From a virus, in the IMG/VR virus record IMGVR_UViG_3300035230_000136, positions 1-23,447 of that record: 23,447 bases of DNA; one strand, 5' to 3'. A program made the translations under genes and the position numbers. The notes under the pieces were generated by a model. The model was not told where the DNA came from and made no database searches. It saw nothing but the letters and a program-made list of their open reading frames with translations. Every line of letters starts with the position of its first letter. Within the stretch, counting starts at the first letter, position 1. Below are positions 1-23,447 of the stretch, one piece after another.

Positions 1-336
1 TGGGCAAATGACTAAAACCGAGGGTTGTAGCCATTCTTCATGGTCATAAAACGCATACCAAGTCGTTCTGTCGTATTTATGCTGATTGTAGTTACCAGTG
101 ACCAATACTTTCTGGTCAATGAGGTTTTTTAAGATGCGATTAATCTGTCTTGTCGTCCAAAATGGAAAGCGAACTCTTAAAGCGGCAACGCTATCGTATG
201 ACCAAATCCTGTCATCATAAATATTGCGCCCATTGGAAGCATTCATCCCAATAAAGAGTTGAAAGTTGCGAATTAAAATGGCTTCGCCAATCCCATATTT
301 AGCCGCTACTTCGGTGTTAAACGAACAGTTTTCCAT
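1..336 (-). CDS. Replication-initiator-like winged-helix protein, N-terminal part (cut by left edge)
   Basis: An open frame of 112 codons reads leftward from ATG at 336 and runs off the window without a stop. The product begins MENCSFNTEVAAKYGIGEAI and contains IWSYDSVAALRVRFPFWTTR followed by QINRILKNLIDQKVLVTGNY. This matches the N-terminal winged-helix pattern of phage replication or replisome-organiser proteins (YG..EAI...N, a tryptophan-rich strand, then a recognition helix followed by G.YN...YDRT.WY), as I know the family. It probably binds origin DNA or loads helicase; the C-terminal part that would decide this is outside the window. A purine-rich GGGGAAAAAGAAG lies just before the start. 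It follows cro and is separated from it by an intrinsic terminator, so its expression may need read-through or antitermination. The role is inferred from the N-terminus only. Confidence 0.7.
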   Translation of the reverse strand, partial: MENCSFNTEVAAKYGIGEAILIRNFQLFIGMNASNGRNIYDDRIWSYDSVAALRVRFPFWTTRQINRILKNLIDQKVLVTGNYNQHKYDRTTWYAFYDHEEWLQPSVLVICP

Positions 337-367
337 CTTCTTTTTCCCCACTTACCAAAACCAATGC

Positions 368-393
368 AAAAAAAGACCTCCCAGAGAGAGGTC
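368..393 (-). terminator. Intrinsic terminator between cro and the replication gene
   Basis: Read on the minus strand, the stem GACCTC/GAGGTC (6 bp, 7-nt loop, positions 375-393) is followed directly by seven T residues (368-374). It lies just after the cro stop and before the replication gene start at 336. On the plus strand there is no T tract, so it acts leftward only. Its place resembles tR1 of lambda, between cro and the replication genes. Confidence 0.8.
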
Positions 394-403
394 AAAATCA
401 GCA

Positions 404-583
404 TTACTTTTTATATTTGTCTATATTTGCTTTGAGTTTGCCGCCGGACATGACCTCAAACACCGCATTCCAAGGTAATTTGAGAGGTTCGCCCATCCTG
501 TAAACGTGTGATGGGTGCTTTTTTATCGCTTTAGCCGCATCAGCGACCGAGCCGAAATAATCTTTTAAGTCTTTTCTGTTCAT
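404..583 (-). CDS. cro: Cro-like repressor, 59 aa
   Basis: The product, MNRKDLKDYFGSVADAAKAI followed by KKHPSHVYRMGEPLKLPWNA, matches the P22 Cro type of small HTH repressor. Helix 2 is about residues 12-20 (VADAAKAI), the recognition helix about 23-30 (HPSHVYRM), and LP..A corresponds to the conserved segment after it. The frame stays open up to a TTG at 619, but the ATG at 583 gives the usual Cro N-terminus. No good Shine-Dalgarno sits directly before 583, so the exact start is uncertain. It diverges from the repressor gene at 757, with one operator copy (626-642) over its likely promoter. Cro would shut down repressor synthesis and commit the phage to lytic growth. It should be the first gene of the leftward lytic transcript. 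Confidence 0.8.
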   Translation of the reverse strand: MNRKDLKDYFGSVADAAKAIKKHPSHVYRMGEPLKLPWNAVFEVMSGGKLKANIDKYKK

Positions 584-625
584 GGTGTAAGTAAACCACA
601 GTTCCCCTAGACGGTGCAAACTTAA

Positions 626-642
626 TTGTCGCTTATAGTCGA
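626..642 (-). promoter_or_regulatory. Operator copy 1, over the cro promoter
   Basis: On the minus strand this reads TCGACTATAAGCGACAA, an imperfect palindrome with half-sites TCG/CGA around a TATA centre. The same 17 bp occurs at 1121-1137 (one mismatch) and 1076-1092 (two mismatches). The central TATAAG is a reasonable -10 box for cro, with a weak -35 TTATTG 17 bp upstream, so a bound repressor would block cro transcription. That it binds CI/Cro is inferred from repetition and position. Confidence 0.7.
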
Positions 643-724: not shown

Positions 725-756
725 AGCAATTCAACTCACAGACAGGTAAACGTAAA

Positions 757-1062
757 ATGAAAATCAGTGACAGACTCATCTTAATGAGAAAAGACCTTTC
801 GCTTTCTGGAAGCGAGTTGGGTGCGCTTGCAGGAATTAGCAAATCGGCTATTTCGAAGTTAGAACTAGGAAAATCAACTAACCTAAAGCTAGAGCATCTA
901 TATAGCATGGCAGACGAAACCGGGTATTCGGCAGAGTGGATAGCCATTGGTCGGGGCAAAAAAGTAGCAACGCCGCCCGAATTTATCATTGATTTGATGG
1001 ATTATTCAAAAGAGAATCGTGAACTCATTTTGCAACTAATTAGCCACATACCCAAGCGATAA
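757..1062 (+). CDS. CI-like HTH (XRE) prophage repressor without a peptidase domain, 101 aa
   Basis: Residues 4-60 form a Cro/CI-type helix-turn-helix (RLILMRKDLSLSGSELGALA followed by GISKSAISKLELGKS; recognition helix about 27-36), then SAEWIAIGRG, typical of short XRE phage repressors. The C-terminus is short and lacks the S24/LexA Ser-Lys peptidase, so induction by RecA-stimulated self-cleavage is not expected; an antirepressor or another signal would be needed. A weak AGG lies 8-10 nt before ATG. It diverges from cro and has its own promoter (696-724). Operators lie beyond each end (626-642; 1076-1137), consistent with silencing both the cro promoter and the promoter of the operon that follows. 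The assignment as lysogeny repressor rests on fold and context. Confidence 0.8.
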   Translation: MKISDRLILMRKDLSLSGSELGALAGISKSAISKLELGKSTNLKLEHLYSMADETGYSAEWIAIGRGKKVATPPEFIIDLMDYSKENRELILQLISHIPKR

Positions 1063-1493: not shown

Positions 1494-1703
1494 ATGTCTG
1501 ACTATTTCATCAATAACGACCACCATCTTGACCCCCCAGATGATCCGTATTATGAATCACCGGAACTGCAAGGGCATCAAGAAGAACTACTGAAAGACCT
1601 TGAGAAAATGACAGCAGATTTAGATTTCAACCAAGGGGCATCAGACGAATTTTACGAAGCTGTTGAGGAAGAAGTTGACAGGCTTAGGAGGTTATTCAAA
1701 TGA
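1494..1703 (+). CDS. Small acidic protein of unknown function, 69 aa
   Basis: A strongly acidic product, roughly 22 Asp/Glu against few basic residues, with a likely amphipathic helix at residues 28-69 (EELLKDLEKM ... EAVEEEVDRLRRLFK) and a low-complexity, His/Asp/Pro-rich start. I do not recognise a family. It begins one base after the preceding stop, with GAGTG as a possible ribosome site, and its stop overlaps the next start as ATGA (1700-1703), so it is coupled to the ERF gene. Acidity and position are compatible with a DNA mimic or a recombinase accessory protein, but that is a guess. Confidence 0.55.
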   Translation: MSDYFINNDHHLDPPDDPYYESPELQGHQEELLKDLEKMTADLDFNQGASDEFYEAVEEEVDRLRRLFK

Positions 1704-2386
1704 GTTTACATAAACGATTGAGCGACATTCAAAAGAAGTTGGTCGCTCCAAAAAACCAACAAGGGCATAACTACAATTTTCGTAGTTGCGAAGATATTCT
1801 GGAAGCACTCAAGCCGCATCTTGGAGAGTGTGCCGTCACGATGAGTGATGAGATTGTGATGGTGGGCGAAAGATACTATGTGAAATCACACGTTTGGTTG
1901 TGTGATGGTGGGGGCGATGACGCTGTTGGCGCTGTCGCTTGGGCAAGGGAGCCAGAGAAAAGTAGAACCGGAATGGATGAGTCGCAAATCACAGGTAGCG
2001 CATCCAGTTATGCGCGGAAATATGCTTTGTCTGCGCTGTTTGCGATAGACGATGTGACTGATCCAGATTCGATTAAACATCGAGGGATTCTCGCCAAATT
2101 ATCTGATCCAGAAATTAACGAAACAGCGGTTAGAGAAACGGCAGAATTGGTAACAGAATTGATGGAAAAAGATGACACTGCCGGAGCCTATCAGCTTTAT
2201 GACGAACTAAACCGGCTAGAGCAATCTCTCATCTTAACCGCGCCAAAGAACTTCACTGACGCGAACATCAAGCCTATCCTCACAACAGCAGAAGTGAAAT
2301 GGTTCAGAGAAAGCGCCAACGACCAAGCGGCTATCAACAAGCAATTAGCAGAACAAGAAAAAACTAAAGCAAGGGGTAAGAAATGA
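1700..2386 (+). CDS. erf: ERF-family single-strand annealing recombinase, 228 aa
   Basis: The N-terminal 130 residues show the ERF-superfamily pattern: LHKRLSDIQKKL, then HNYNFRSCEDILEALKPHL, and the signature GSASSYARKYALSALFAIDD at 99-118. ERF proteins form rings on single-stranded DNA and promote annealing, for genome circularisation or phage recombination (as shown for P22 Erf). The C-terminal half (about 130-228) is helical and less conserved, with a lysine-rich end, as usual. The ribosome site is GGAGG at 1688-1692. The gene overlaps the acidic gene before it and the SSB-like gene after it by ATGA (2383-2386). ERF next to SSB is a common phage pairing, which supports both calls. Confidence 0.85.
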   Translation: MSLHKRLSDIQKKLVAPKNQQGHNYNFRSCEDILEALKPHLGECAVTMSDEIVMVGERYYVKSHVWLCDGGGDDAVGAVAWAREPEKSRTGMDESQITGSASSYARKYALSALFAIDDVTDPDSIKHRGILAKLSDPEINETAVRETAELVTELMEKDDTAGAYQLYDELNRLEQSLILTAPKNFTDANIKPILTTAEVKWFRESANDQAAINKQLAEQEKTKARGKK

Positions 2387-4337: not shown

Positions 4338-4541
4338 ATGTTGCTCACTCAAGACGAAATCACTGAACTAACCGGATCAAAACGGTTGAGAACGCAGATT
4401 TTTGTCTTGTCTGAAAATCAAATTGGGTTTATTGTCAGATATGACGGTAAATTGTCAACAACATGGGATGCCGTTAATTCGGCACTCATAAATTCCGAAA
4501 CAGAAAAAGAGCAAGCGCCAAAACTCGATTTTTTATCATGA
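4338..4541 (+). CDS. DUF4224 family protein, possible excision factor, 67 aa
   Basis: The start, MLLTQDEITELTGSKRLRTQ, is the typical beginning of DUF4224 proteins (LLT..EI.ELTG.KR...Q), which are short and usually encoded directly before a phage integrase. The stop overlaps the integrase start (ATGA, 4538-4541). A role as recombination directionality factor has been suggested by such positions but is inference here. The last 17 residues (EKEQAPKLDFLS) are charged and probably disordered. Confidence 0.7.
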   Translation: MLLTQDEITELTGSKRLRTQIFVLSENQIGFIVRYDGKLSTTWDAVNSALINSETEKEQAPKLDFLS

Positions 4542-5479
4542 AAAGACTGCCGACAAGGGTTTATCTTAAGCATAACGCTTATTATTACGTTACCTTGCCG
4601 GACAGAAAATGGATCAGATTGGGCAAATCCGAAGCGGAGATGTACAAGTCACTAGCCAAAATAGCTGACCTTGATTCTGGCAGAGGAACAATGACGGAAT
4701 ACCTCATTCGTTATGAAAATGAAATCATCCCCACCAAAGCTGAAACCACACAAAAAGACAATTTACGCGAACTACTCAACTTAAAACGTGCTTTTGGGCA
4801 TATGAATCCAGAAGCCATTAAGCCAAAACACATTTACGCATACATGGATGCGCGAAAGACTGCAAAAGTTGCCGCAAATCATGAAAAATCACTGTTATCC
4901 CATGTATTTTCATACATGATCCGTTGGGGTATTGTCGAATCCAACCCATGCCGCGAAGTTAAGAAGTTCACCGAAAAGCCGCGCACCAGATACATAGAAG
5001 ATTCGGAATATTTCGCGTTCAGAGATTTTGCGCCACCGATGATTCAAGCCGCAATGGAAGTTGCCGTAATAACTGGTTTACGGCGTGGTGATTTACTGAA
5101 TCTGAAAAGTAGCGACCTAGAAAATGAACGACCCATTGTCACCAGTAAGACCGGTAAAAAAGTCATTTTTGAATTAACACCAGACTTGTTGGCGGCAATC
5201 AAGTTAGCTAAAGCAACCAGAGTGATGCCAAGTATTTATCTCATCACTAACAAGAAAGGTCTACCGTATACGCTCAGTGGATTCTCATCCAATTGGGGTT
5301 TTTATATGAAAAAAGCAATTGATTCTGGGATTTTAGCAGAACGATTTAGATTGCACGACTTGCGCTCTAAAGCCGGATCAGATCACAACCAAGGCGATAG
5401 ATTATTGGGGCATCAAGACCCGAAAACAACCCGGCGGCATTACGAAAGAAAGCCAATTAAAGTCCAACCTATCCGATAA
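4538..5479 (+). CDS. int: Tyrosine-family integrase, 313 aa
   Basis: A tyrosine recombinase with all catalytic positions visible: Arg182 in TGLRRGDLL, Lys204 or 207 in the beta hairpin TSKTGKK, His273 and Arg276 in LHDLRSK, His292 in LLGHQDP and Tyr302 in RRHYERK. The N-terminal part holds an arm-binding domain (about 1-45, with YVTLPDRKWIRLGKSEAE) and a SAM-like core-binding domain (about 52-140). It would catalyse integration and excision between attP and a bacterial attB. The length is normal for a compact phage integrase. It is the last gene of the early operon, coupled to the DUF4224 gene, and stands directly before the repeat-rich region (5480-5693) that should be attP. Confidence 0.92.
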   Translation: MKRLPTRVYLKHNAYYYVTLPDRKWIRLGKSEAEMYKSLAKIADLDSGRGTMTEYLIRYENEIIPTKAETTQKDNLRELLNLKRAFGHMNPEAIKPKHIYAYMDARKTAKVAANHEKSLLSHVFSYMIRWGIVESNPCREVKKFTEKPRTRYIEDSEYFAFRDFAPPMIQAAMEVAVITGLRRGDLLNLKSSDLENERPIVTSKTGKKVIFELTPDLLAAIKLAKATRVMPSIYLITNKKGLPYTLSGFSSNWGFYMKKAIDSGILAERFRLHDLRSKAGSDHNQGDRLLGHQDPKTTRRHYERKPIKVQPIR

Positions 5480-8238: not shown

Positions 8239-11200
8239 CTAGTTATACGTTACAGTTTCAGAAGTGGACGAAGCTGCCGTTATGACGTGTATAGTGAATC
8301 CCGATACGCTGGTAACGGTTGAATATGTCACCCCAGATGAGAAAGTGGCGGTGTATCTATCTGGTATTTTTAGAATGACAACCCCAGAGCCTCCATTTCC
8401 TGCCGATCCGCCGCCACCACCACCACCAGAGGAACCTCCGCCCGAACCGGTATTGATATCTCCATGAGTGCCGCTATTAGACGTTGAGTTACCACCAAAA
8501 CCACCAACCCCAGAACCGCCAGTGCCTCCACTACCTCCAGTAGCACCCCCACCACCGCCACCAGCGTAGTAAAGCGCCGTTCCAGTTATAGAACTTGATA
8601 CCCCATCACCACCATTACCACCAGAAGATGTACTTCCGTCCGCACCCACACTTCCTGCTCCACCACCCCCACCAGCACCATAAGCAGGTGAATATCCGCT
8701 AGCCACACCGTTGCCACCTGCATGACCTTGACCAGCAGTTCCACTTGCACCACCTGATGTGTTAAATGATTCTCCACCACCACCAGACCCACCAGACGTT
8801 GCGTTTGCAGTTGGTTGACTTTGCGCTCCACCGCCACCGCCACCGATAGTGACAATGGAAGAATAAGTAGAGTTACTGCCCGATCCCCCAGTCGTGTTCA
8901 CAGAACTAGCACCGGAACCCCCAGCACCAATAATCACTGAATAAGTTGTGCTATCGAGAAGAAAAGAAGATGATCCTGTCAAAAGACCCCCAGCACCCCC
9001 ACCACCAGACCCAGTGCTGTTATATGATTTAGCGCCACCACCGCCACCAGCGACTACCAAATAATCTGCCACTGGTGGGGCTGCTTGTATGGCACCCAAA
9101 CCGTCCCCAATATTAGTCCAAAAATTCTCATCCGTAGTAGCATCGGTGCAAACGTATGCTTCACCAGAAGTTGAGTTAATCCAGAAGTGACCTACTGTAA
9201 GGTTTGATGTGATGAGCGGGTCAGTTGTTGCTGTTGTTGAGTCGGTTAAATCTGCGAGTGATGTTGCTCCACCACCCGAACCGGATGCCGCAGCAGTTGG
9301 AGCAGTGATACGTATCCTTGCTGTTGCGTCTGCTCCAGTTCTATTAGTTACCTTGGTTGTTGTACCGGATTCAAACTCAACGCCCCAATCTTCAAATGTG
9401 TCTAGTTCCCAATAAGAAGCAGAGTCCTTGGTGAAGTCGATGGAACTGAATGAACCACCGGCAGTAATATCAACTTTAATCTTAGCCTGTCCTGCACTAG
9501 AGGGTACGGTTAGCACTCCATGATCGGCAGAGAATGCTGTCCATGTTGCACTAGATGGGTCACTAGCTAGATAGTCAAACGAAAACGCTGTAGTAGCATT
9601 AGTTGCATCTAGTGCCGTTTGTGTTAATGAATATACATTGGTTAAAACAATGACATCATCTAGTACTGTTTCACCGGCAGTGGTTAATGAGGGATACGCC
9701 GCGAGAAAACACAGACCATTCATTGTTCTAAAGACACTTCCATCATCTCTAGCGCGAAATTTGTAATAACCGGCGGTTAATAATGGTGATGAAATTAACC
9801 AAGATGAGTGTGTTGCAGGACTTGAGAACACTCCGTCATATAATGCCGTTTCTGGCAATCCAGTATTATCAGTTTCATATATATCCCATTGTTTGTTGCC
9901 AGAATTTAGACTGCCGGATGATATGTCACCATCATGATATGACATCATGAAACAATCTGCAGCGAGATGTACTGAGAAATAATGAGTTGGGGTGGTTACA
10001 TAGTTCGGATCACCACTGATTACATTAGTGTCGTTCATAGAAGTCCACTGATTGTTTTGGCTCACCCCCGTTATAAATGTAGCAGTTATAAGATTGTCGT
10101 TAATTACTAGTTGTTGTGTTATATCCTCTGGCGTTCGTGCGGCAGCAACAAAAACCTTCTTATCAACCGATGCACCGGCAATCTGTTTCTCAATATACAC
10201 AGACCGCATTTCTGCTGTGTCAGCGGTGTGGGTATACGTTTCTGGAACAAGATGGGTGAATAACTTCTCATCATCTATCAGCGTACCAATCGAACTACCA
10301 CTGGATGTACTAGCTGATGCACTAGCAGTCGGAGCAGTGATTCTGAATCGTGCTGTCGCATCTGCACCTGTGTTATTCGTGATCGTTGTCGTGAACTCGT
10401 CGGTGAACTGAACTCCCCAATCGTTATATGTTTCTAGTTGCCAGTGGGTTGATGCTGCGGTAACTGGAATTGGAACTAATGTAGATGGAGGTGTGAAATT
10501 AGATGTATATCGGGCTGACCCTACCGTTATACGGAAATCTTCTACGTTTCCAGTGTAATTATATTGAGCAGAGTATCCAGAACCGATGACTGCATCAGAG
10601 ATAATATAGTTAGTTGGGTCGGAGACTGAATACGCAGAAGTTCCATCAAGATACACTTGTGTCGTTCCGCTCGATCTCACAACTGCAACATGCATCCACT
10701 CATTTAACGTAATGCTACCCGTGACGTTTGAGTAAGACCCTCCACCATACCATGTCCATAAAGAAGTCCTCCAGTTTAAACCAATTGTTGAACCGTAACC
10801 TGTATCAAAGCCACCGGCAGAATCAGATAACTGAAACAAGTTCCAGTTAGTGCTAACGGTTGGGCGAATCCAACATTCAACTGTGAAATCACCAGTACCT
10901 ATGGTCGATATCCCATCGTAAGATACTCGGCTATTACCATCGAATGATAAAGAACTTACACCGAATTTAGTATTAGTCGTGTCGATGCTTACAGTGCCGA
11001 CCTCAGTAGCAGTTTGTTCGAAATCGCTCAAATCAGTTAACGTGTTACATACTAATAACTCAGTTCCGGTTAGGTCTGGTGCAGTAGCCGGAATCTCAAC
11101 AAACTTCTCTATATAAACCGAGCGTAGATCTTCTGAGTCTGACGTATGTGTTAATACAGCAGTTTTATCTGCTACAACTGTTATATCTGTTGCCGCAGTA

Positions 11201-11472: not shown

Positions 11473-11480
11473 AATTTTCC

Positions 11481-12479: not shown

Positions 12480-12490
12480 AATTCTTTCTC

Positions 12491-13273: not shown

Positions 13274-15204
13274 TAGAATCGCACCAGAAGTTTATTTGAT
13301 GTAAGTGCTGTACCGGCAAAAACAGCGTGTTCATCTTCACTAGACTGCAAAGACCCGTCACCCCTGACCCACATTTTTGTGCCGGGAACCAATCCGGTGC
13401 GCGTTGTTTCGATTGATCCTACAGTGAGGATTAATGCTGATTCACCATCAGCGTGATTATTGGCAGCAAATCCGACAAATGGCATATCCCCCAAGTTTGA
13501 CACGATCAAATCTGAACCGGGATCATAAATCATCACGCTGATTTCTCCCCCGTTTGAAAAGAACCAAATCGTTTTGTTCACATGAACAACTTCATGACCT
13601 GAATTACTTCTTGCAACCACTCCCGGTGAAAACGTGTGTGTGCTAGATGCGATGCCGATAGAGAATGTTTGAACTGCTACATGATTCTCAGACCCATGCA
13701 GGCGAAACGCTCTGACTGCCAATGTGCCGCTTTCTGCACCTGCCTGACCGTATGTAAAAGCCTGATGATAATTGGAATAAACCATATTAACGTCATTCGG
13801 CAATGGATAACTTCCCGGATTAGGATTAACAGCACTAATATTTAAATTGTCGGTCGCACTTCCAAATGTCGGTGGTTGACCCTCAACATCTTGCCTGATC
13901 GGTAGAAGACTCAACAATGCGCCACGCTCTATTTCGGCAGGGTATGTGCCGGAAACTGTTTGCCACCCGACATACGATTTTAATACCGAGCAACTGCTTT
14001 TCGCCCATGCACTCGTTACCTTCAATGTGTTCATGCGCTGCGTTGTCCACCAACCCCCATTGCTATGTTGAATTGTACTCCACACCCTTTGCCCTGATGT
14101 GTTCAGATAACCAAGACAATATGCACCATCAACATCAAAATAATAAACGTCTAGGGCAAATGACAGTGGTGACGCGAGCCAATCGACAACAGTGCCGCTC
14201 GGTGCATACGCATGACACCCGGAGCAGTTCAAGAATCCATCGGATGATGGGTTCACGTTATGTAGCGAACCCTCAACAACCAAATCAGTGCCGTCGAATG
14301 TATATATCCCTATCTTTCTCTGCCCACCGGCATCACGATAGATATAATCAACATCGTGAGGATCGAGCGGTGGAGTCAATCCAGACGCATATTGACTGAA
14401 ACCATTCAGCGAATCACCATAACTCCCAAAAGAGATAACGACCTTATCATTAACAGCGTCATAAAAAGCCGCACTCTCATAAAAAGTTGCGTGATACCCA
14501 TTATTGAAAGTTTGAGATACCCCCCATGAGACACCACCAGAGACCAACGTGCCGACAATAAACTGCGCCCCATTTTCATGGTCATACCAGACCAAAAGTT
14601 TATCCCCGGCAATGCATGCGGAAATGTGACCATAGTTTTCAAAGTTCACCCCCCACAAAAATCCAGAAGCCACAAACTCGCTGTCGTGATCCACTTGAAA
14701 ATCATCAGCAGTTGGCACGGTGTGACCAATCAGACAGCGCACAGATGTTGGCACTGTCGCATCTTTCACTCTTTCATCCAAACTACTGCCAAAGGTATAC
14801 AGCACAACTGATTGATTCCGATCTGCATCATATAGAGAGGTGTGTATTTTGGTTTCACTACCGGTAGGATTCGTCCCATTTAGTGGGATGCTCTGAATAT
14901 TGGTGAACTGCATAGCGGCGCTAAGTGTCGTTGTTCCAACAGAAGTGACCGTGCCGTCAGTATTCAATAATACCGGCTCGCCTGCTACCAAAGAACCAGA
15001 TGCAATCAACTCGACAGCACCTCCTGCACCAACTCCGCCGCCTGCGGAAGCCCCTCCGGCAGTGGTTGTTCCTGCTGATGCAAGTCCATCAACAAAATTC
15101 GCTCTGGTGATTTTCTTGACCGTTCCGGCATCTTCCACCAGAACTTCCATCGCATTATTTGCGACAAGAATTGCCGGTAAGTCGGTTAATTTAGTCTGTG
15201 CCAT
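13273..15204 (-). CDS. Tail appendage protein with docking N-terminus, 643 aa
   Basis: ATG at 15204 is preferred because AGGAGC stands directly upstream and the product then starts MAQTKLTDLPAILVANNAME, matching the docking module of the gene at 12491. A Gly/Ala-rich hinge (about 45-65) follows, then about 500 residues of beta repeats with Trp/Gly/Asp-rich blades (DKLLVWYDHENGAQFIVGTL, NDKVVISFGSYGDS, KTIWFFSNGGEISVMIYDPG), suggesting a beta-propeller or similar receptor-binding structure. A CSGCHAYAPSG segment holds two close cysteines. The C-terminus (MWVRGDGSLQSSEDEHAVFA, GTALTSNKLLVRF) resembles intramolecular tip segments. Receptor binding or glycan contact is inferred. Confidence 0.65.
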   Translation of the reverse strand: MAQTKLTDLPAILVANNAMEVLVEDAGTVKKITRANFVDGLASAGTTTAGGASAGGGVGAGGAVELIASGSLVAGEPVLLNTDGTVTSVGTTTLSAAMQFTNIQSIPLNGTNPTGSETKIHTSLYDADRNQSVVLYTFGSSLDERVKDATVPTSVRCLIGHTVPTADDFQVDHDSEFVASGFLWGVNFENYGHISACIAGDKLLVWYDHENGAQFIVGTLVSGGVSWGVSQTFNNGYHATFYESAAFYDAVNDKVVISFGSYGDSLNGFSQYASGLTPPLDPHDVDYIYRDAGGQRKIGIYTFDGTDLVVEGSLHNVNPSSDGFLNCSGCHAYAPSGTVVDWLASPLSFALDVYYFDVDGAYCLGYLNTSGQRVWSTIQHSNGGWWTTQRMNTLKVTSAWAKSSCSVLKSYVGWQTVSGTYPAEIERGALLSLLPIRQDVEGQPPTFGSATDNLNISAVNPNPGSYPLPNDVNMVYSNYHQAFTYGQAGAESGTLAVRAFRLHGSENHVAVQTFSIGIASSTHTFSPGVVARSNSGHEVVHVNKTIWFFSNGGEISVMIYDPGSDLIVSNLGDMPFVGFAANNHADGESALILTVGSIETTRTGLVPGTKMWVRGDGSLQSSEDEHAVFAGTALTSNKLLVRF

Positions 15205-15502
15205 CGCTTGCTCCTGTGATGTTTGCAACGAGCAACTGGCTGTTTAGTGCCATACTCTTGTTATTCGATTCCACCATCTCGTCACGAAATGACGAAATCG
15301 CTTGTGTTTGTCCTCTATTTGTTTGACTCATTTCAATCTGCAATACGGGCATCCATGCAATGGCGCACCTGTATTCATCTAATTCCTCGTTAGACTGAGG
15401 GTTCTTGCCGACCACCTTGGTGTACCAGTGGCATTGATGGATTTGCCCATCTTTAATTTCTTCGCACTGGCTCCCAAGTGGGCATGTCATAACCCTTTCC
15501 AT
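15191..15502 (-). CDS. Conserved phage structural-region protein with cysteines, 103 aa
   Basis: The first part has the pattern MTCPLGSQCEEIKDGQIHQC, HWYTKVVGKNPQ, EYRCAIAWMPVLQIEM, with four cysteines (about residues 7, 13, 24 and 46), followed by QTNRGQTQAISSFRDEMVES. I know this family from marine phages next to fibre genes, where it is uncharacterised. The cysteines may bind a metal or form disulfides. TAATG junction before it, and a 14-base overlap with the next gene. Confidence 0.65.
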   Translation of the reverse strand: MERVMTCPLGSQCEEIKDGQIHQCHWYTKVVGKNPQSNEELDEYRCAIAWMPVLQIEMSQTNRGQTQAISSFRDEMVESNNKSMALNSQLLVANITGASDGTD

Positions 15503-16005
15503 TACGTTTTCACACCAACCACCACATCTGTGTATTTTGGGCTAGAAGTAGGAGTCGCAGAACCCGTTGAATGACTCGATGCTCCTGTGGAGTAAGAAAC
15601 TGTTGCTGCGACTGAATGAACGTGACCCTCCAACCATGACCCAAATGCAACTGTGCCCCCAACACCTCCACCAGTGCCAGTGACAACTCGCAATGCAGTA
15701 TCGGAGTGGCTTGTCTCATCCTCCAACACCCATCCTGTCGGTGGTGACGCTTGGTTAAAAATCATTCTTGTTCCAGACGGGAATGACGAAGTGGCGTTGG
15801 CTTGTAAAATCGGATGCCATGCATCATTCATGTAGATGTTGATCGTTGTTTGCGTGGTATCAAGCCACAACATCCAACCCACAGGGTTCGTAGGTGCTGT
15901 TGCCCCAGAATTAAGTGTTGCAAGTGACATTAGAGCATCATTAATATCTGCTCGAACCGATGATCCAGTGCCGTTGTCGATGATAAAATCAGTTGTTTGT
16001 GCCAT
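15502..16005 (-). CDS. Collar/fibre-like structural protein, 167 aa
   Basis: The middle part (FPSGTRMIFNQASPPTGWVL, EDETSHSDTALRVVTGTGGG) is the tail-collar fibre pattern (GT.M.F.QA.AP.GW....), followed by GGTVAFGSWLEGHVHS with a conserved His pair and a Ser/Thr-rich end. The N-terminal region (NPVGWMLWLDTTQTTINIYM, NDAWHPIL) is typical of marine phage fibre proteins that describe a one-line beta strand module. It probably forms part of a short fibre or tip. Ribosome site AGGA before ATG. Confidence 0.7.
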   Translation of the reverse strand: MAQTTDFIIDNGTGSSVRADINDALMSLATLNSGATAPTNPVGWMLWLDTTQTTINIYMNDAWHPILQANATSSFPSGTRMIFNQASPPTGWVLEDETSHSDTALRVVTGTGGGVGGTVAFGSWLEGHVHSVAATVSYSTGASSHSTGSATPTSSPKYTDVVVGVKT

Positions 16006-16007: not shown

Positions 16008-17186
16008 CTAAAATCCTGTAGCTTGATAGTTAAAAGTTGTTGTAATCGGTGCATCGTTCACATCGACAAATGTAACAGTAAACCCAGACAACGTGATATT
16101 TGATATTTCAAAACTCCCCACCAAATCATGAGCGGAAATTCCTAGAAATGGTGGTCGCCGAAATGGCTTATCAAATGTAACAGTGTGAATACCTGTCGCA
16201 TCAGTTTCGATGCCAAAACCACGCGCAGTTCTATCAGGTACATTAGCAGTAACGCCTAGCTTGCTGACTCGCACATTAGTGTTCTGCATGGGAGATGTCA
16301 GCACTAAGCGAAAATCAAATGCCAGACCGGTCATTTCTACACCATCCACAAGCGTCTGCCAGTCACCAGTTTCACTAATATCGTTACGAGTGCGAACTTG
16401 AATTTCTTTTGTCACACTGCCACCGGCAAGCGAGTCGAACTCTGTCCATGAATCCATGAATGGAACTCTCGCATCAACCAAATCCTCAAGTGACAAGTCC
16501 TCACTGTCTAAGATGCTCTTGAACGTGACCGACCCGATTTCTGCGAGTGTCAATCCGCTTGCGAAATTATAAATTCCTTGTTCTGGAACAGTGTAACTAT
16601 TCGTCACCAGAATATCATCACCGGTATTTGTGATGAGGGTATCACCATTATTCAACTCAATGAGAAATGGTTCAGGCATCAATTGAAGCACATCATCGAC
16701 AACTTCTGTCTGCCAGTGCGACCCGGCAAACTCAACGTGCTGAATGAACTCTTGCAATTCGTTCAGTTGCTTTTCTTCTATTGTTGAAACTGCCGCAACA
16801 TGGTTCGGCGATTCCATGCCTTGCCGAACCGCTTTCATCATATATGTGCCGATTTTATGTGGCGTTGTCGTTGTAACTGCCGCGTAAGAAAGCGTTTTGA
16901 TCTGTGTGCCATCCGACCACTTTGCATCATCCAGAACTGAGGTGTGCCGCAGTTCCAAACTTGCCTTTGTGTCGGTGATTCTATTCCATTCAAGATTTGC
17001 AACAGAGTCCGTCACAGTAACATTGAGATACTGCAAATCAATTGGCGCATCTTGATGCCCATCGAACGTAATATCACCGTAGTGCCAAGCGCTCGGAACT
17101 CCCGTTACGTTCACGGTACGAACTCGCAACTCAAAAACTGTGGGTTCGTCCACGACATTATTAATATATTTGGTGTAACTGGTCAT
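16008..17186 (-). CDS. Tail tip J-like protein, C-terminal half as a separate gene, 392 aa
   Basis: The start (TKYINNVVDEPTVFELRVRT, VNVTGVPSAW) is the second half of a fibronectin III domain whose first half ends the gene at 17183. A second FN3-like domain (about 50-130), a helical segment (TIEEKQLNELQEFIQHVEFA), and beta-rich terminal domains follow, the last (FRRPPFLGISAHDLVGSFEI, ... TFNYQATGF) typical of the end of J-like proteins. It overlaps the previous gene by four bases (ATGA), with AAGG about 11 nt before ATG. It should assemble with the N-terminal half to form the receptor-binding tip. Confidence 0.75.
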   Translation of the reverse strand: MTSYTKYINNVVDEPTVFELRVRTVNVTGVPSAWHYGDITFDGHQDAPIDLQYLNVTVTDSVANLEWNRITDTKASLELRHTSVLDDAKWSDGTQIKTLSYAAVTTTTPHKIGTYMMKAVRQGMESPNHVAAVSTIEEKQLNELQEFIQHVEFAGSHWQTEVVDDVLQLMPEPFLIELNNGDTLITNTGDDILVTNSYTVPEQGIYNFASGLTLAEIGSVTFKSILDSEDLSLEDLVDARVPFMDSWTEFDSLAGGSVTKEIQVRTRNDISETGDWQTLVDGVEMTGLAFDFRLVLTSPMQNTNVRVSKLGVTANVPDRTARGFGIETDATGIHTVTFDKPFRRPPFLGISAHDLVGSFEISNITLSGFTVTFVDVNDAPITTTFNYQATGF

Positions 17187-19378
17187 GACGAAGCAACCTT
17201 GTCGGTGTTTGACTCAATCTCGTCAAGTCGAATCCACTCTCCGGTGCTACGACTCCGATATTCAAATTCAGCGTAATCAGCAAACGGCTCGTTGGTTTCC
17301 CAAGTCACTGTCGCTTTTGTGACAAGCGTGTCGTCAGGGGCAATATTATCCAGAGATTGTGGAGCGTATGTGATTTCCTCGTTGCTAACCATGTCAGTTG
17401 GTGGCAAACAAGTATCGTGCTTTGGTAGGTTCGTGTCTGACTTGGATTCGGTATGTAAATTCAGTTCAGAGACATCATACACCGATTCCTCATACTCTCG
17501 ACAGCCGATTAAGATTTCATCATTCGGTTGCAATGACATTTTTAATATCCGAAACGGTTTAGCATCCCATCCCGGTGTTGGATGTGTGATGTTTATCACA
17601 TCGCCAACTTCGACCACCATACCAATAATGGTTGCTGTAAATTCCGCATAAATTTGTTGTCGTGACTGCTTGAGATTAGCAAGGGCAATCTGTTGTGCTG
17701 TTGCCGCATCACTTGTAAATGGCAGTTTCAAATCGGCTTGCAGAACTAAATTATTATCAGCATCTTTTCGCAACTCCTTGCTCTCGACAACAATCTGATC
17801 GTCCTGCCAAGTTTCGGCTTGGTTGAAAAATCTTGCTCTGACAGAATTGAATGTATTCGATTTATCGCCCAGAGAAATATTCCATGAACCGGTAATGTTA
17901 TCCGATGACGCTGTGCCAGTAACAGACGTTGGTTTGTCGATGACGAGTCGATATTTGCCACCAGAAAAGACCATAATCCCACGGCAACTGGTAAGCAAGT
18001 CACCCAGAATGCTCATCGCTTTTTTATCTACATCTACCACGCCGTTGCAGGTATATCGTTTAGCCGCTAGGTCTTGTCCTTGAAACAATATATCAAGACT
18101 AGCACCTCTATCACCGCTCATAGCCAAGTCTGGATTGGTGACCACTTTGATGCTCGTCAACGCGATAGGGTCATTCAGCGTAATAGTAACCGTTGCGCCC
18201 CTGTGACTTCGATTCCCTAACCAATAGCTATCTGATGCGGATATTTCTCCACCGGGCAATCCGTGTGATGTTGCCAACAATGTCGGGTCAAGAATATTAC
18301 CGACAGCAAATCTATCGTCAAGGGTTTCAGATGCTTCAATCGTTACGCCGTTGCTGTAACTTGCCTTAGTTGATGACTGATCTATTCTGTCACCCACATC
18401 AAACTCAACACCATCAACCAATAAACGCAATGCCCCGAATGCAGGATGTGTCTCTGTAGCGTTAACCGTGATGATGATTTTTTTCACACCGCTAAATGTT
18501 GCCGGAACATCGCTCGTCACCGTGTATTCTTCTTGAGTCGCAACGCCTGTCTGATATGGCACTGACAGTGTTGCTATGTCCTGCATCTCGGCATCGCTTG
18601 TACCTTTAGTGACCAATTCATCACAATAATCTGCCGCAACGATAATCGCCGCATCATCTATGTGAACTTCGTCAATGCCACGACCATAAACGTCATTAGT
18701 CAGATAATCTCTAATGCAAAGCGCCGGATTATCGCTCCACGCAATAACGTCAGTTCTTGGGTCTTTGACTTTCACACCTTTCACATCGAACGTGAATGTT
18801 GGGATGCCGGAATACCAAACCTTTGTGTCATGATATAAGCGAACGTAGATATATGCCACTCCACTCAATTTGTGGTTTGCAGTCCACTGATCCGGTAATC
18901 GCTCAATCAGTTTTTCATCGGCAACCTGATCCCATGCGCCAAGATGTTCGTTGAATTCGACAACCGGAACACCTCCATGAGTCACTTCAAATCTGTCGTT
19001 TATCACTCCATCAACTTCATACTGAACATCATTGATCCAAATCTTGTCAAACGATTCAATTTCACCCTCTGCAATCGCCAGAACCATGTGTAGTTCTCTA
19101 TGTTTCTTGGCACTTGACCCCACGAATACCCTAGTTGCTCCAACCCTACGCTCACCATAAATCACTTTTATTGGAGCAAGCGCAGACGCTTTGTTTGCAA
19201 GCATACCTTGACCGTCCATGCTCGGAACATCTTCACCGGTGAGTGCTTGCATGATGGTGCCAATTGCCATCGAGATTCCGATGTTTATCACTGCCGCCGC
19301 AAACGCAATCGTTCCGGCACTAAGCCCTGTGACTCCGACTGCCGCGAAAAGCGCTGTTACTCCTGCCGCGCCTGCCAT
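17183..19378 (-). CDS. Tail tip (J-like host specificity) protein, N-terminal half, 731 aa
   Basis: After a hydrophobic start (residues 1-45, ALFAAVGVTGLSAGTIAFAA) comes the J-family core: KVIYGERRVGATRVFVGSSA, HMVLAIAEGEIESFDKIWIN, FTFDVKGVKVKDPRTDVIAW and SDNPALCIRDYLTNDVYGRG. The central part (about 450-640) matches the phage tail-protein 3 region (DLLTSCRGIMVFSGGKYRLV; GMVVEVGDVINITHPTPGWD). It ends within an FN3 domain (TKATVTWETNEPFADYAEFE, YRSRSTGEWIRL). This protein closes the distal tail tip and contacts the host receptor with the next gene product. The TAATG junction couples it to the DUF5131-like gene before it. Confidence 0.85.
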   Translation of the reverse strand: MAGAAGVTALFAAVGVTGLSAGTIAFAAAVINIGISMAIGTIMQALTGEDVPSMDGQGMLANKASALAPIKVIYGERRVGATRVFVGSSAKKHRELHMVLAIAEGEIESFDKIWINDVQYEVDGVINDRFEVTHGGVPVVEFNEHLGAWDQVADEKLIERLPDQWTANHKLSGVAYIYVRLYHDTKVWYSGIPTFTFDVKGVKVKDPRTDVIAWSDNPALCIRDYLTNDVYGRGIDEVHIDDAAIIVAADYCDELVTKGTSDAEMQDIATLSVPYQTGVATQEEYTVTSDVPATFSGVKKIIITVNATETHPAFGALRLLVDGVEFDVGDRIDQSSTKASYSNGVTIEASETLDDRFAVGNILDPTLLATSHGLPGGEISASDSYWLGNRSHRGATVTITLNDPIALTSIKVVTNPDLAMSGDRGASLDILFQGQDLAAKRYTCNGVVDVDKKAMSILGDLLTSCRGIMVFSGGKYRLVIDKPTSVTGTASSDNITGSWNISLGDKSNTFNSVRARFFNQAETWQDDQIVVESKELRKDADNNLVLQADLKLPFTSDAATAQQIALANLKQSRQQIYAEFTATIIGMVVEVGDVINITHPTPGWDAKPFRILKMSLQPNDEILIGCREYEESVYDVSELNLHTESKSDTNLPKHDTCLPPTDMVSNEEITYAPQSLDNIAPDDTLVTKATVTWETNEPFADYAEFEYRSRSTGEWIRLDEIESNTDKVASS

Positions 19379-19992
19379 TAATTAGCGCCCCACAAATGGC
19401 TATGATTAATCGTAAACGCAACGTCTTGTGAACGACATTTATCGGCTAGATTCTCCGCCCACTCTTGTTTGAATGGTCGGCGTAATCCCCACGCTTCTTT
19501 TGATGCGGCAACGTGATTGATGCCGCTCAAGTCAACGTCACCAAACTCGCCCAACAATGGCACTGCCGAAACAAATCTCTGTTGAGCAGGAATCTTTTGT
19601 AAAAAACCAATCCGCCAATCGCATTCCCCCGATTCAGCAACAACACCCATCGCAATATTATCTGACCACTCAAATTGATCCGCCATGACTACCGCTCTCT
19701 CGATGCGTTTAGTCAATATTTCGTATCCGTGTTGCGGCGTGTCGTTCATGACTTTGAAAACACTCTTGATATAATCTAGCGGCACTGACTCATGAAATAA
19801 ATCACTGCCAAATGCAACCGAAAATACTTTAGGGGCAGAAATGGTTGTCGGTATAGCTAACTGGTCTGGGCAAAGTTGAACCGAGTAATCTTCGCCGGTT
19901 CTCACAGAGTGCAAATAAGATGGGCAAGAATCGCATCCACCCGAAATTCTTTCGCATCCCTTGGTGACTTGCCACGTTATCCAGTTTTCCAA
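19378..19992 (-). CDS. DUF5131 (Gp37/Gp68-like) protein with Cys motif, 204 aa
   Basis: The start, WITWQVTKGCERISGGCDSC, has C13-x6-C20-x2-C23, the Gp37/Gp68 (DUF5131) signature, followed by matching blocks: VFSVAFGSDLFHESVP, YEILTKRIERA, NIAMGVVAESGECDWRIGFL, IPAQQRFVSAVPLLGEFG, and a late AFTINHSHLWG. The fold is thought to be a TIM-barrel relative; the Cys cluster may bind Fe-S or zinc, but the usual aromatic residue after the third Cys is Pro here. Length is at the short end of the family. Function unknown. Oddly, it lies within the tail tip operon and overlaps both neighbours. Confidence 0.75.
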   Translation of the reverse strand: MENWITWQVTKGCERISGGCDSCPSYLHSVRTGEDYSVQLCPDQLAIPTTISAPKVFSVAFGSDLFHESVPLDYIKSVFKVMNDTPQHGYEILTKRIERAVVMADQFEWSDNIAMGVVAESGECDWRIGFLQKIPAQQRFVSAVPLLGEFGDVDLSGINHVAASKEAWGLRRPFKQEWAENLADKCRSQDVAFTINHSHLWGAN

Positions 19993-20417
19993 AACCTGAC
20001 CCCCACCGACTTGTCGAAAGCGTGTAGTTTTCCACGACCTGCAATCAATATTTTATTGTCTTGATTAATGACCCCCATTGTCAACGTGCCATCATTCAAA
20101 TGTGTCGCAACCTCGCATAACGCAATGTCACCATGCCGGGCAGTTGGTCTTGGAATCTCAGTCATATTATATAGTGTCGCAAGCTGCTCCATGACGCTTT
20201 CAATGCCACCTCCTGCATAATCTTTCAGCAACGAATACGCCTTGTTGCTGTCCGAGTATTTGCCCCGAAACCATGCGGCAATATCAACGCCAGACATTGC
20301 TAAAACGGCATCACCAACAAACAGACAACAATCGTGTTGCCCCCATGTGAAATCTGAGCCATGACGTTCGATCAGCAACCCATTCAGTTTAGCTTCCCAA
20401 CCGGCAACGCGGATCAT
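19977..20417 (-). CDS. DUF6950 tail protein, NlpC/P60-like, 146 aa
   Basis: ATG at 20417 overlaps the preceding stop (ATGA) with GTGGGG just upstream, so it is preferred over the in-frame codon four residues earlier. The motif FTWGQHDCCLFVGDAVLAMS (23-42) has the Asp-Cys pair of NlpC/P60-like domains, with RHGDIAL (about residue 95) as the matching His-Gly-Asp segment. Located between the DUF2163-type gene and the J gene, it corresponds to the NlpC/P60 gene of lambda- and GTA-type tails, which may act on cell-wall peptide during entry. Confidence 0.8.
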   Translation of the reverse strand: MIRVAGWEAKLNGLLIERHGSDFTWGQHDCCLFVGDAVLAMSGVDIAAWFRGKYSDSNKAYSLLKDYAGGGIESVMEQLATLYNMTEIPRPTARHGDIALCEVATHLNDGTLTMGVINQDNKILIAGRGKLHAFDKSVGVRFWKTG

Positions 20418-20983
20418 TTTATGCCCCACTTAATATCACTTAAAACGGCATCAGAGTATTGAAAGCCTTTATCAGTTGAGTCCCACCGACTCACTTGTTC
20501 ATTGTGGCTTGTGTGCCGCCCACCTCTACGTTCAAAGTCGACCCAATGGCTTGCCGCTTCAATTGAAATTACACACGTTCCCGATTCGGGGTCTTCTGAA
20601 ATAGCAGGCTTATTTATTCGCCCAGAAAACATAAGTACCGGGTCAGCGATTGGGGTCATTGCCGAGTTTAAAAAACATTTGTATAAATCCATTTGTCGAT
20701 CTAGGTAATGCTTTGAAAGCAACATCGCCATGACCGATTGATCCACCCCCGAAAGTTGTGCTGTCATCGAGGATGTTATTAGTTCTGCTGTTTCTTCAAT
20801 GTCGGAGAATCCTAAAAACGACCCGAATCCGATGTAAACTCCGGCATCAGTCGTTAAATCCCGATTGAAATCCGTCATCCTGACAACACCCTCATCCCAA
20901 TGCAATTCAAGCAAGTGAACAACGATGCACTGATCTGCTGACATTTCGTCAATTGCATCTTGCGTTGCCCCTCGATAAGCCAT
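20414..20983 (-). CDS. DUF2163-type tail protein, 189 aa
   Basis: Recognised by VRMTDFNRDLTTDAGVYIGF, GSFLGFSDIEETAELITSSM, TAQLSGVDQSVMAML and the late FERRGGRHTSHNEQVSRW with DKGFQYS. This is the N-terminal domain of the DUF2163 family, a hub or minor tail protein (equivalent to lambda L and GTA orf13). It joins the distal tail to the tip protein. Gene order tape measure, small minor tail protein, DUF2163, NlpC-like, J supports the call. TAATG junction with the gene before it, ATGA with the gene after. Confidence 0.8.
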   Translation of the reverse strand: MAYRGATQDAIDEMSADQCIVVHLLELHWDEGVVRMTDFNRDLTTDAGVYIGFGSFLGFSDIEETAELITSSMTAQLSGVDQSVMAMLLSKHYLDRQMDLYKCFLNSAMTPIADPVLMFSGRINKPAISEDPESGTCVISIEAASHWVDFERRGGRHTSHNEQVSRWDSTDKGFQYSDAVLSDIKWGIK

Positions 20984-21549
20984 TAGTTGATTACCTCAAC
21001 GAGCGACAACTGGAAAGAATGAAAAGAATGAACATCAATGGATGTATCTTGTTGGTCACTCGCAAGCGCAACCGTAAACTCAACCGATTCACAGACGATG
21101 CTTTCGCCAGACTCAATATCCGCGTGAAGTGGTGGCTCGATGTGAACGCTAGTGCTATTCGGAACATTTGTGACCATGTAGCATTTGTTGTGACCACTGA
21201 ATTTAATAAAGTCACCGGCAGCCAGCGATTGTGAACTTGTGCCAATTGAATATGCCCCTGCGTTTTGACTGATGAGCGCAGTGACAGATGCGTTTGTGCC
21301 GGTTGCGCTGTTGCCATAGCTACCCGGCACGAAAGTGAATGTTTCATACTGTCCTTTCCGAGCGACAATGAATGCCCACAGTGGGGCGAACTCAAGTCTG
21401 CTCATTGGCGGATATTCAGCTTCAATCATCCACCGATGCCCACCACGTTGTCTGACTTGCCGCTTGCCAGAATGTGTTTCTGATATGAGTGTTGGCGTGT
21501 GTGATTTGATCGTCAGTCCTTTGAACTTTGGATTTACGGGTAACTGCAT
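20983..21549 (-). CDS. Minor tail protein (lambda M / distal tail analogue), 188 aa
   Basis: The start MQLPVNPKFKGLTIKSHTPT, followed by SGKRQVRQRGGHRWMIEAEY, PPMSRLEFAPLWAFIVARKG and YETFTFVPGSYG, is a pattern seen in marine siphophages directly after the tape measure gene. The middle (about 90-150) is a beta insert of the kind SLAAGDFIKFSGHNKCYMVT. By position it corresponds to DUF2460/gpM-type distal tail proteins. Start and stop junctions are TAATG type with both neighbours. Confidence 0.7.
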   Translation of the reverse strand: MQLPVNPKFKGLTIKSHTPTLISETHSGKRQVRQRGGHRWMIEAEYPPMSRLEFAPLWAFIVARKGQYETFTFVPGSYGNSATGTNASVTALISQNAGAYSIGTSSQSLAAGDFIKFSGHNKCYMVTNVPNSTSVHIEPPLHADIESGESIVCESVEFTVALASDQQDTSIDVHSFHSFQLSLVEVIN

Positions 21550-23447
21550 TATGCTGTGACTCCCGTCCGACCTTGTTTGCGATAAGCATGGTCAATCATG
21601 CCGACAATGTGCTTCTGATTCTTCATCAGAAATGCTGTGCCGCTTTGCGTATCGACCGCATTGATTTGGAATGTGACATTGAGCGAACTATTATCCTGCT
21701 GTGATGCACCTAGTTTATCATTTGGCACAATCGTTCCCGATGTTCTTGGAACAAATAACTCTGCCCCTCTCTCACCGACAATATACGGTGTGCGACTTGA
21801 AACTGATCCGCCTTTGGCTTTTTTCTCTAGAGTCCAACCACTATTTTTGGCAGGCATCTTTGGTTTTCCCGTCATATCATCAAACAGTTTACCGAGGTCG
21901 TTCATTTTTCCTGCGCTTGCATTCAAAAATGTGTCTTGGTCATTACTTATTGGAAGTGCGGTAATGGGAGGATTGTCGCTCAAGGCGAACGTGTTTGCCG
22001 CTCCAGTTGCCTGTGGCATATTAAATGAAGCGACTGCGCTCTTAACCAATCCAATACTAGCGAGTATGGCTCGTAATATTAAGGTTTTCATAATCATTGC
22101 GGCAATATCAATCAAAATTGACTTCGCAAAATCTTTAAACGATGCCTTTCCTGTCGCCATTGCTTCAGCCATTCCTCTACCTAGATTAGTAGCAAAACTG
22201 TTTCCCAGATTAGCCACCGCTTTATCTGTGTCACCAATATCTTTATTTAACGCCATAAGTTCAGCCCTTACGCCGTCAAATGTTGGAGTTTGCATCTCAA
22301 AAAGATCATCTGTTGGTGGTTTAATATTAGGATCGGATACATCCCACTGCAAATCAAGCATTCCTTGACTAGACTCTATGAGGTCTTTTGTCTTTTCATC
22401 TACAGCAGTTAACTCAGTTAAATAGTCTGACGCGGCTTTTGATGATGCTAAAAATGCGTCATGAACCACTTTTTGAAATGTGGTCAGACTCTCGCTAACC
22501 TTTAAATTAGACTTGAACATCCAGTTCATGAAGTCAACATACGCTGTAGTTATTGAAAGCAACCCGGTTATAGCGGCATCTCGCATCAAATCTATTCCGG
22601 CGGCTACCCCTAAAGCCGCAAGGTATAAATACTTACCTGCTTTGACAACAGCCTTACTGAACGCTTGTAGCCAAGGTTCTTTTAGAACTTCGCGTAAATC
22701 CTTAATATAACCGGTGAATGCTCTGATGCCATCTGCCATTGCGTCAAAAACACCGGTATTGCCTATGGCAACAAGAAAGTAATTCCACTCGTTAGTCATT
22801 CGTTCAAATGCCGCGCCTGCTTGCTTTGACGCTCTTACCGCAACACTTTCAAACTTCGTTTGTAGAACTGTTGCTAATTTCGGCAATAGATCAACCGCAA
22901 GGATTTTCCCCTGCTCCAACATCTTTGACATCTCAGCAGTAGTCAGCCCCATAGCTTTTGCCGCCATTGGAAAAGCGCCCGGTAAATGCTCTCCAAGTTG
23001 ACCCCTTAACTCCTCGGCTTGTACGTTGGCTTTTGATAACATTTGCTCTAAAGCCTTGAGTGTTAAGCGTGTATTTTCCGAACTTAACCCCATTGCGGCG
23101 GCGGCGGTTGCTACAGAACTAAACACCCTATCCGATGTTTGTAATTCCATTCCGGTTTCTTTTGCGGCAATGGAAAACTTCTTGTAAGCGTCAGCAGTCG
23201 CAATAAAATTTATTCCAAGTCGATCTGATAGTGTTTTAATCTTCTCGACTTCTTTCCTAGCCGCACCAATAGAACCGGTTGACGCAATCATGGAGTTCAT
23301 GAAAGCATCCATGCGTCTATTTGCAGTAAATACTGATTTTGCTAACAAGCCAAAACCGGCGGCGGCTCCGGCTAATCCGGCGGCAGGAATCGACCCTAGA
23401 GATGCGTTAAGCTGAACTGCTTGCAATTTAGCATTACGCAACACTCT
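21549..23447 (-). CDS. Tape measure protein, C-terminal 632 residues (cut by right edge)
   Basis: The open frame continues through the right edge. The region about 35-210 is the tape measure N-terminal domain found in lambda-H-like proteins: NSMIASTGSIGAARKEVEKI, LGINFIATADAYKKFSIAAK, VQAEELRGQLGEHLPGAFPM, AAKAMGLTTAEMSKMLEQGK. Hydrophobic helices follow (AMIMKTLILRAILASIGLV). Near the end, AKGGSVSSRTPYIVGERGAE, LFVPRTSGTIVPN is the hallmark of tape measure C-termini. It sets tail length and probably takes part in DNA passage. A good part of the N-terminus may be missing, since GTG at 23444 is only the first start codon visible. Confidence 0.88.
   Translation of the reverse strand, partial: RVLRNAKLQAVQLNASLGSIPAAGLAGAAAGFGLLAKSVFTANRRMDAFMNSMIASTGSIGAARKEVEKIKTLSDRLGINFIATADAYKKFSIAAKETGMELQTSDRVFSSVATAAAAMGLSSENTRLTLKALEQMLSKANVQAEELRGQLGEHLPGAFPMAAKAMGLTTAEMSKMLEQGKILAVDLLPKLATVLQTKFESVAVRASKQAGAAFERMTNEWNYFLVAIGNTGVFDAMADGIRAFTGYIKDLREVLKEPWLQAFSKAVVKAGKYLYLAALGVAAGIDLMRDAAITGLLSITTAYVDFMNWMFKSNLKVSESLTTFQKVVHDAFLASSKAASDYLTELTAVDEKTKDLIESSQGMLDLQWDVSDPNIKPPTDDLFEMQTPTFDGVRAELMALNKDIGDTDKAVANLGNSFATNLGRGMAEAMATGKASFKDFAKSILIDIAAMIMKTLILRAILASIGLVKSAVASFNMPQATGAANTFALSDNPPITALPISNDQDTFLNASAGKMNDLGKLFDDMTGKPKMPAKNSGWTLEKKAKGGSVSSRTPYIVGERGAELFVPRTSGTIVPNDKLGASQQDNSSLNVTFQINAVDTQSGTAFLMKNQKHIVGMIDHAYRKQGRTGVTA

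Follow-up and report, generated by a model that had tools for sequence, protein, structure and literature searches.

Loss of GGCC, GGWCC and CCWGG sites in a siphophage lineage, with missing sets that vary among relatives and along a recombinant genome

Introduction

Phages of Bacillus have few BsuRI (GGCC) sites and those of staphylococci are without GATC, and in both groups the site of a host enzyme has been lost. A similar loss is described here for IMG/VR virus record IMGVR_UViG_3300035230_000136, the whole of which (23,447 bases) was analysed and is called the window below. Over its full length (1..23447, both strands) the window lacks GGCC, GGACC or GGTCC (GGWCC), and CCAGG or CCTGG (CCWGG), sites that correspond to enzymes of the HaeIII (GGCC), AvaII (GGWCC), Sau96I (GGNCC) and EcoRII (CCWGG) types. 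Unlike the window, the Bacillus and staphylococcal phages are cultured, their hosts are known, and mostly a single site class is involved.

Site elimination is a known phage strategy (Rusinov et al. 2018, PMC6286503). In the parts of that survey drawn on here, a site is taken as eliminated when observed/expected is below 0.1 and more than 15 copies are expected, temperate phages tend to show elimination less often, and sites are not avoided where cytosines are hydroxymethylated. Like the phages surveyed there, the window belongs to a double-stranded DNA phage in which palindromic Type II sites have ratios below 0.1, and in both settings a modification enzyme would be expected to ease the selection. 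It differs from them, as far as those parts of the survey go, in that three site classes are lost together in a phage with an integrase and a repressor, and in that the missing sets vary from one relative to another and over the length of one recombinant genome. The terms “mosaic” and “recombin” do not occur in the main text of PMC6286503, and, among the papers listed from an open-access library for the wording searched, titles and abstract openings showed nothing on module-borne site sets. As site elimination is already known, the interest of this case lies in the all-or-none sets, their inheritance at the level of modules, and their presence in a phage with an integrase and a repressor. Very probably, orthodox Type II restriction in the hosts of this lineage has purged it, and is still purging it, of GGCC, GGWCC (or GGNCC) and CCWGG, and partly of GCWGC and CGWCG, with sets that are lineage-specific and module-borne.

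Results

Three site classes are absent from the window

Exact counts were compared with a maximal-order Markov model and with a codon-shuffle null, in which synonymous codons were exchanged within genes in 1,000 shuffles of 33 open reading frames (22,230 nt, overlaps counted twice), preserving every protein and the codon usage of each gene. GGCC, the only one of the 256 tetramers absent from the window, was found 0 times against 51.5 expected by the Markov model (z −9.0) and 39.6 by codon shuffle, the lowest shuffle having 24. For GGWCC the count was 0 against 14.1 by codon shuffle (lowest shuffle 3), and for CCWGG 0 against 12.7 by the Markov model and 17.9 by codon shuffle (lowest shuffle 7). 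Zero was never reached in the 1,000 shuffles for any of the three. The original prediction, that GGCC is missing where about 50 copies would be expected and that GGWCC and CCWGG are missing as well, is thus confirmed by exact counting, and the Markov comparison that it proposed gives the strongly negative score it anticipated for GGCC. GGNCC is also at 0, and since GGSCC must be zero wherever GGCC is zero, GGNCC contributes only GGWCC as an independent fact. Against the published thresholds, GGCC is eliminated under either null; CCWGG is eliminated by codon shuffle (0/17.9), but only 12.7 copies are expected by the Markov model; and the expectation for GGWCC in the window alone is 14.1, below 15, with 1/69 in the pooled lineage.

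Control words of like composition were at or above expectation. Whole-window counts were 20 for CCSGG, 93 for CCGG and 60 for GCGC, and over the shuffled open reading frames CCSGG stood at 20 vs 16.8, CCGG in excess at 93 vs 57.6, and GCGC at 56 vs 51.8. Two further words were strongly depleted by codon shuffle, GCWGC (15 vs 52.1) and CGWCG (2 vs 33.9), and two were depleted about twofold, GATC (53 vs 89.7) and AGCT (34 vs 79.9). The accompanying statement that similar palindromes are common therefore holds for CCGG and GCGC and is misleading for GATC and GCWGC, which are depleted roughly 1.7-3.5 fold.

The loss is being maintained

Relatives were gathered by scans with tail protein J, the ERF protein and the major capsid protein, together with a genome scan; one member, G008, was assigned to the lineage by its early genes only. 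Across the 15 records of the window lineage (the window and 14 others, 179,605 bp analysed) there were 6 GGCC, 1 GGWCC and 5 CCWGG, along with 679 CCGG. Four relatives diverge from the window at 12.0-17.0% of the aligned columns. Random reassignment of the observed substitutions within base and codon position, on aligned columns with gap columns dropped, would create 6.9-15.4 GGCC, 3.6-6.4 GGWCC and 5.2-9.0 CCWGG, against 0 of each in the window; the 1-2 GGCC and 1 CCWGG counted for the window in this test are an effect of the dropped gap columns. CCSGG agrees with its random-reassignment value. Comparisons with L018 and L101 (11.0 and 8.9% divergence, less than 4 kb) are little informative, with only 3.9 and 2.8 GGCC expected. 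Because random substitutions would have made sites, the loss is maintained and not merely inherited, and purging of the lineage is ongoing.

Relatives have lost different sets

Site states were mapped on a tree of capsid sequences with 67 rows, comprising 65 of the best 80 of 478 capsid loci, the core of the relative G001, and L022; the 15 capsid loci omitted were mostly short. The tree comes from a short search, with several weak forks and with long branches flagged. Change counts omit ambiguous states, leaving 65 of the 67 rows for GGCC, 48 for GGWCC, 58 for CCWGG, 64 for CCGG and 49 for CGWCG, and the fewest changes required were 4, 3, 5, 4 and 4, respectively, with 0 for both GATC and GCGC. 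Neighbouring rows of like GC differ in the sites that they have lost. The window clade is without GGCC, GGWCC and CCWGG and keeps CCGG; its sister group (L190-L195 and L197) has zero GGCC, GGWCC and CCGG and keeps CCWGG. More than one GG-CC specificity can be told apart: L189 has 19 GGCC, yet zero GGWCC and GGSCC, a GGNCC pattern, and L256 has 26 GGSCC and zero GGWCC, a GGWCC pattern. GGWCC is gone with GGSCC present in L209, L210, L252, L254 and L257 as well. Among these, L209 and L210, together with L206, keep GGCC with 0-1 GGWCC, 0-1 CCWGG and zero CCGG, and L254, L256 and L257 keep GGCC with CCGG, GGWCC and CGWCG gone. No loss among the eight scored words was seen in 27 of the 67 capsid rows, most of them more distant. 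The missing sets split along restriction-enzyme specificities, as composition could not easily make them do.

The missing set follows a tail module in G001

In the window, the genes for central tail fibre J and the distal tail (16008..21549, minus strand; PHROGs 31, 5616, 2048 and 1302; blastn) form a module that is also present in G001, with zero GGCC and GGWCC in both. The neighbouring tail-fibre region (8239..16005, minus strand), assigned by PHROG matches to three of four scanned open reading frames and by blastn, shares part of its gene order with the segment of G001 that is free of sites. Nucleotide identity of the G001 tail region to the window is 69-83% over separate aligned pieces (blastn, G002 against the window). 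The tail module of G001, running from 31,036 through the end to 7,787 (12 kb), contains 0 GGCC, 0 GGWCC and 2 CCWGG, whereas the remaining 23 kb of core contain 70, 21 and 29, respectively (Fisher 1.8e-13 for GGCC). GCWGC, GAGGC and CCAGC also differ between tail and core, and CCGG and CCSGG are alike in both. Similarity to the window stops at 7,787 and the first GGCC lies at 7,838; at the tape measure gene, which in the window (21549..23447, minus strand; PF20155, 85.6 bits) is truncated by the record end, similarity falls to 28% of amino acids and the sites return. In 2,191 longest-gap tests on loci of at least 9 kb, only the G001/G002 loci passed Bonferroni correction, so the mosaic is a single case.

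Two methylation genes lie in the core of G001, one for a C5 methyltransferase and one for an N6/N4 methylase fused to ParB. Within the C5 methyltransferase gene (L011, 5049-6365, minus strand; PHROG 363) a second conserved frame lies on the same strand (5117-6301, minus; PHROG 1008). A search of 39 records for PF00145 gave two with a match, G001 and G012, in each of which GGCC is close to its expected number; all 15 window-lineage records, which are fragments, were without it. PF01555 matched in 4 of 36 records, namely G001, G002, G009 and the metagenome-assembled genome G038, there on a contig other than the phage one. This distribution of methyltransferases fits a pattern of “modify or avoid”.

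It is possible, though we consider it rather less than probable, that the core of G001 retains its sites because the C5 methyltransferase shields them and not because of a different host series. The distribution of PF00145 accords with such shielding, and the core and L022 stand at 0.92 of expectation for GGCC, 0.70 for GGWCC, 0.83 for CCWGG and 1.14 for GCWGC. However, relief in the core also covers GAGGC, AACAGG and AAAAGG, words too diverse for one enzyme, and the core is depleted in words of its own (CGWCG, 1 in 23 kb), as a different history would predict. G012 has 1 GGWCC against 4.8 expected despite its PF00145 gene, and GGCC is also present in L022, G002, L206, L209, L210 and L213, fragmentary records in which no C5 methylase turned up. 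A different host history of the core is at least as likely, because its relief includes asymmetric words beyond the reach of one enzyme.

That the G001 mosaic is an assembly chimera is unlikely. Both assemblies are metagenomic and are 99.8-100% identical in their overlap, but the 7.8-kb junction recurs in G002, from a differently numbered metagenome; the tape-measure frame that spans it (L010, 7651-9297) is open throughout; and the GGCC-free run in G002 extends for 12.5 kb.

A host and phage contrast on a SAR86 contig

A distant relative (capsid 46-48%) lies on a contig of SAR86 single cell AG-390-L11. The first 50.4 kb of this contig are chromosome-like and hold 44 GGCC, 27 GGWCC, 49 CCWGG, 25 CCGG and 160 GATC; the last 22.3 kb are phage-like and hold none of the five. 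ARAGORN found no tRNA near the host/phage junction, and no integrase was recognised among the open reading frames there, one of which was scanned against Pfam and gave no match. The phage part may be a prophage or a chimeric join in amplified DNA, the record title naming one sorted cell.

The genome of this cell carries a cluster (L305, 829-3032) of a D12 methylase, an N6/N4 methylase and an adjoining 177-aa PD-(D/E)XK-like protein, the set of genes that is found together in DpnII-type GATC restriction operons. The D12 methylase matches the DpnII methylase structure 2dpm (1.6e-64). Unlike in those operons, the putative nuclease has only a weak PD-(D/E)XK match (23.9 bits) and no convincing solved relative. 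The cluster fits the missing GATC of this phage if the nuclease is what it appears to be. As PF00145 was not found in the cell genome, which is possibly incomplete, the known systems would account for the missing GATC only, which would leave the remaining losses to be traced to different hosts; a missing set may thus record several hosts.

Self-modification by relatives

Modification of phage DNA by phage-encoded proteins is represented by the C5 methyltransferase of G001 and by a Mom-like protein (PHROG 1384, 193.8 bits) in G008 (L099, 6611-7273, minus strand), each in one relative. In contrast to that class, G008 lacks GGCC (0 vs 21.7 expected) although it carries Mom, and the search for a C5 methyltransferase in the window record was negative. 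Mom occurred in 1 of 30 records searched, that of G008, the window being outside those 30. Mom modifies adenines, and the idea was considered that sites with no modifiable A would need purging in Mom-bearing phages; it is undercut by the A in CCWGG and GGWCC. A Mom set (best 80 of 469 loci, L101-L180, G008 included) had pooled observed/expected values of 0.51, 0.41 and 0.52 for GGCC, GGWCC and CCWGG, compared with 0.83, 0.74 and 0.76 in 73 terminase relatives taken from the best 80 of 591. Where at least 10 copies were expected, elimination was seen in the Mom set for GGCC in 11 of 49 cases, GGWCC in 14 of 29 and CCWGG in 8 of 35, and in the terminase relatives in 0 of 70, 2 of 36 and 5 of 48. 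Because the sets are unmatched for GC, host and kinship, because G008 belongs to the Mom set, and because CCWGG and GGWCC contain A, the Mom link is a lead only.

The record and its genes

The record covers part of a temperate siphophage genome and carries the repressor, integrase, lysis and tail genes of such a phage, the last comprising a large tail-fibre set and lambda-like tail tip genes. A putative Cro-like regulator (404..619, minus strand) matches Pfam P22_Cro at 21.4 bits, under the cut-off of 30.2, and is followed by a CI-like helix-turn-helix repressor (757..1062, plus strand; HTH_3, 37 bits), an ERF single-strand annealing protein (1700..2386, plus strand; PF04404, 101 bits) and a tyrosine integrase pointing to a temperate lifestyle (4538..5479, plus strand; PF00589, 43.8 bits). 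A phage lysozyme (5694..6113, minus strand; PF00959, 62.7 bits) and a class 3 lipase adjoining the lysis genes (6325-7104, 93.9 bits) precede the tail region described above, within which a DUF5131 protein (19378-19992, 151 bits) lies inside the tail gene block. In G008 (L099/L101), tblastn gave no match to the window repressor or integrase, and the ERF protein and lysozyme match at 90-99%; from these flanking matches the sequence suggests that G008 is possibly a virulent derivative.

By synteny with G001, a relative of 35.6 kb, the head, terminase and early segment is missing from the window record. The methyltransferase families PF00145, PF01555 and PF02384 gave no match on the record, in agreement with the earlier remark that no methyltransferase is visible; as evidence this is weak, because the missing segment is where G001 carries its methyltransferases.

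The missing set was also expected to help identify the host, an expectation that was not borne out by scans of genome contigs or by a search of 369 genomes. Of two contig scans, one gave no host and the other yielded 23 loci, the best with an 81% capsid match on a 10.8-kb contig in a metagenome-assembled genome called Phycisphaerae. In the class to which G040 belongs, 11 of the 369 genomes sampled matched, the best at 45%. The Phycisphaerae contig (L261, JAERSY010000010.1) is a member of the lineage with the same missing sites, possibly a host clue and possibly a misbinned phage, and thus a doubtful lead.

Discussion

No other explanation of the absent sites comes close to restriction pressure. 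The cause that was originally proposed is supported by the absence itself, the specificity seen in the split between W and S forms, the lineage-specific sets of relatives, the maintenance of the loss, the recombined module of G001, the contrast between host and phage DNA in the SAR86 cell, and the cognate-looking DpnII-like cluster of that cell. We infer restriction as the agent, several contributing hosts, and protection of the G001 core by its methyltransferase.

Mutants that create a site would be cut on entry into an unmodified cell and lost, and synonymous alternatives would build up until no site remained. Each phage lineage would then bear the set selected against by its own series of hosts, and an exchanged module would retain the set of its source lineage because phages recombine by modules, as G001 may illustrate in joining a site-free tail module to a site-holding core with a C5 methyltransferase. 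A temperate phage would be modified while integrated, and since this is so, complete loss suggests frequent passage among differently armed cells; virulent derivatives may also arise, as G008 suggests. Tentatively, and with belief and doubt not far from balance, the missing set may be regarded as an all-or-none, module-borne “passport” that resolves the GGNCC, GGWCC and GGCC specificities, records several past hosts and not the present one, and travels with the tail module, so that phages with different passports would recombine under restriction themselves, and more easily where the core brings a modification enzyme, the C5 methyltransferase of G001 being an example.

Mutational decay, in which sites C5-methylated by host or phage are lost through deamination of 5-methylcytosine, is very unlikely. 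All three lost motifs could carry C5 methylation, and one decay product, GGTC, is in excess (z +3.3), but the others are not (AGCC, z 0.2; GACC, z −0.1; GGCT, z −2.4), and the largest excesses among one-step neighbours are those of GGCA (z 8.0) and TGCC (z 5.4). The core of G001 keeps its sites although it encodes a C5 methyltransferase, and the phage of the SAR86 cell has also lost GATC, where adenine methylation would be the expected mark. Removal of the words by composition, codon usage or a host-wide word bias, which the mild depletion of many 4-6 bp palindromes across all these phages would favour, is hardly credible given that the codon shuffle never reached zero, that W and S forms are discriminated within CCNGG, that different sets are missing at similar GC, and that the host part of the SAR86 contig, a related case and not the window’s host, holds the sites.

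Several observations weigh against restriction as the whole account, the mild palindrome depletion among them. Elimination is rarer in temperate phages in the parts of PMC6286503 considered here, and complete multi-site loss in a phage with an integrase and a CI-like repressor opposes that trend. The genome-contig scans and the 369-genome search gave no window host, and hence no cognate enzyme for GGCC, GGWCC or CCWGG, and the SAR86 cell, the one case in which phage and host DNA are paired, has no PF00145 match and explains GATC alone. G001 and G002, being nearly identical where they overlap, may be one phage assembled twice. GCGC (16 vs 25.7, L015) and GATC (25 vs 37.0, L014) fall somewhat under their random-reassignment values. 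Finally, compared with the core of G001 the lineage is depleted in the asymmetric words GAGGC/GCCTC, CCAGC/GCTGG, AACAGG and AAAAGG, and such words do not fit orthodox Type II sites.

For phages that have not been cultured, the limiting step is to assign a host. If sets of missing sites are as clean as these and vary by lineage and module, they could narrow the restriction repertoire of a host from sequence alone, and, if the reading is true, they could flag recent exchange of modules, with the G001 recombinant and the SAR86 cell as concrete natural experiments. For each phage, or for each of its parts, the missing sites look like a trace of the hosts visited in the past.

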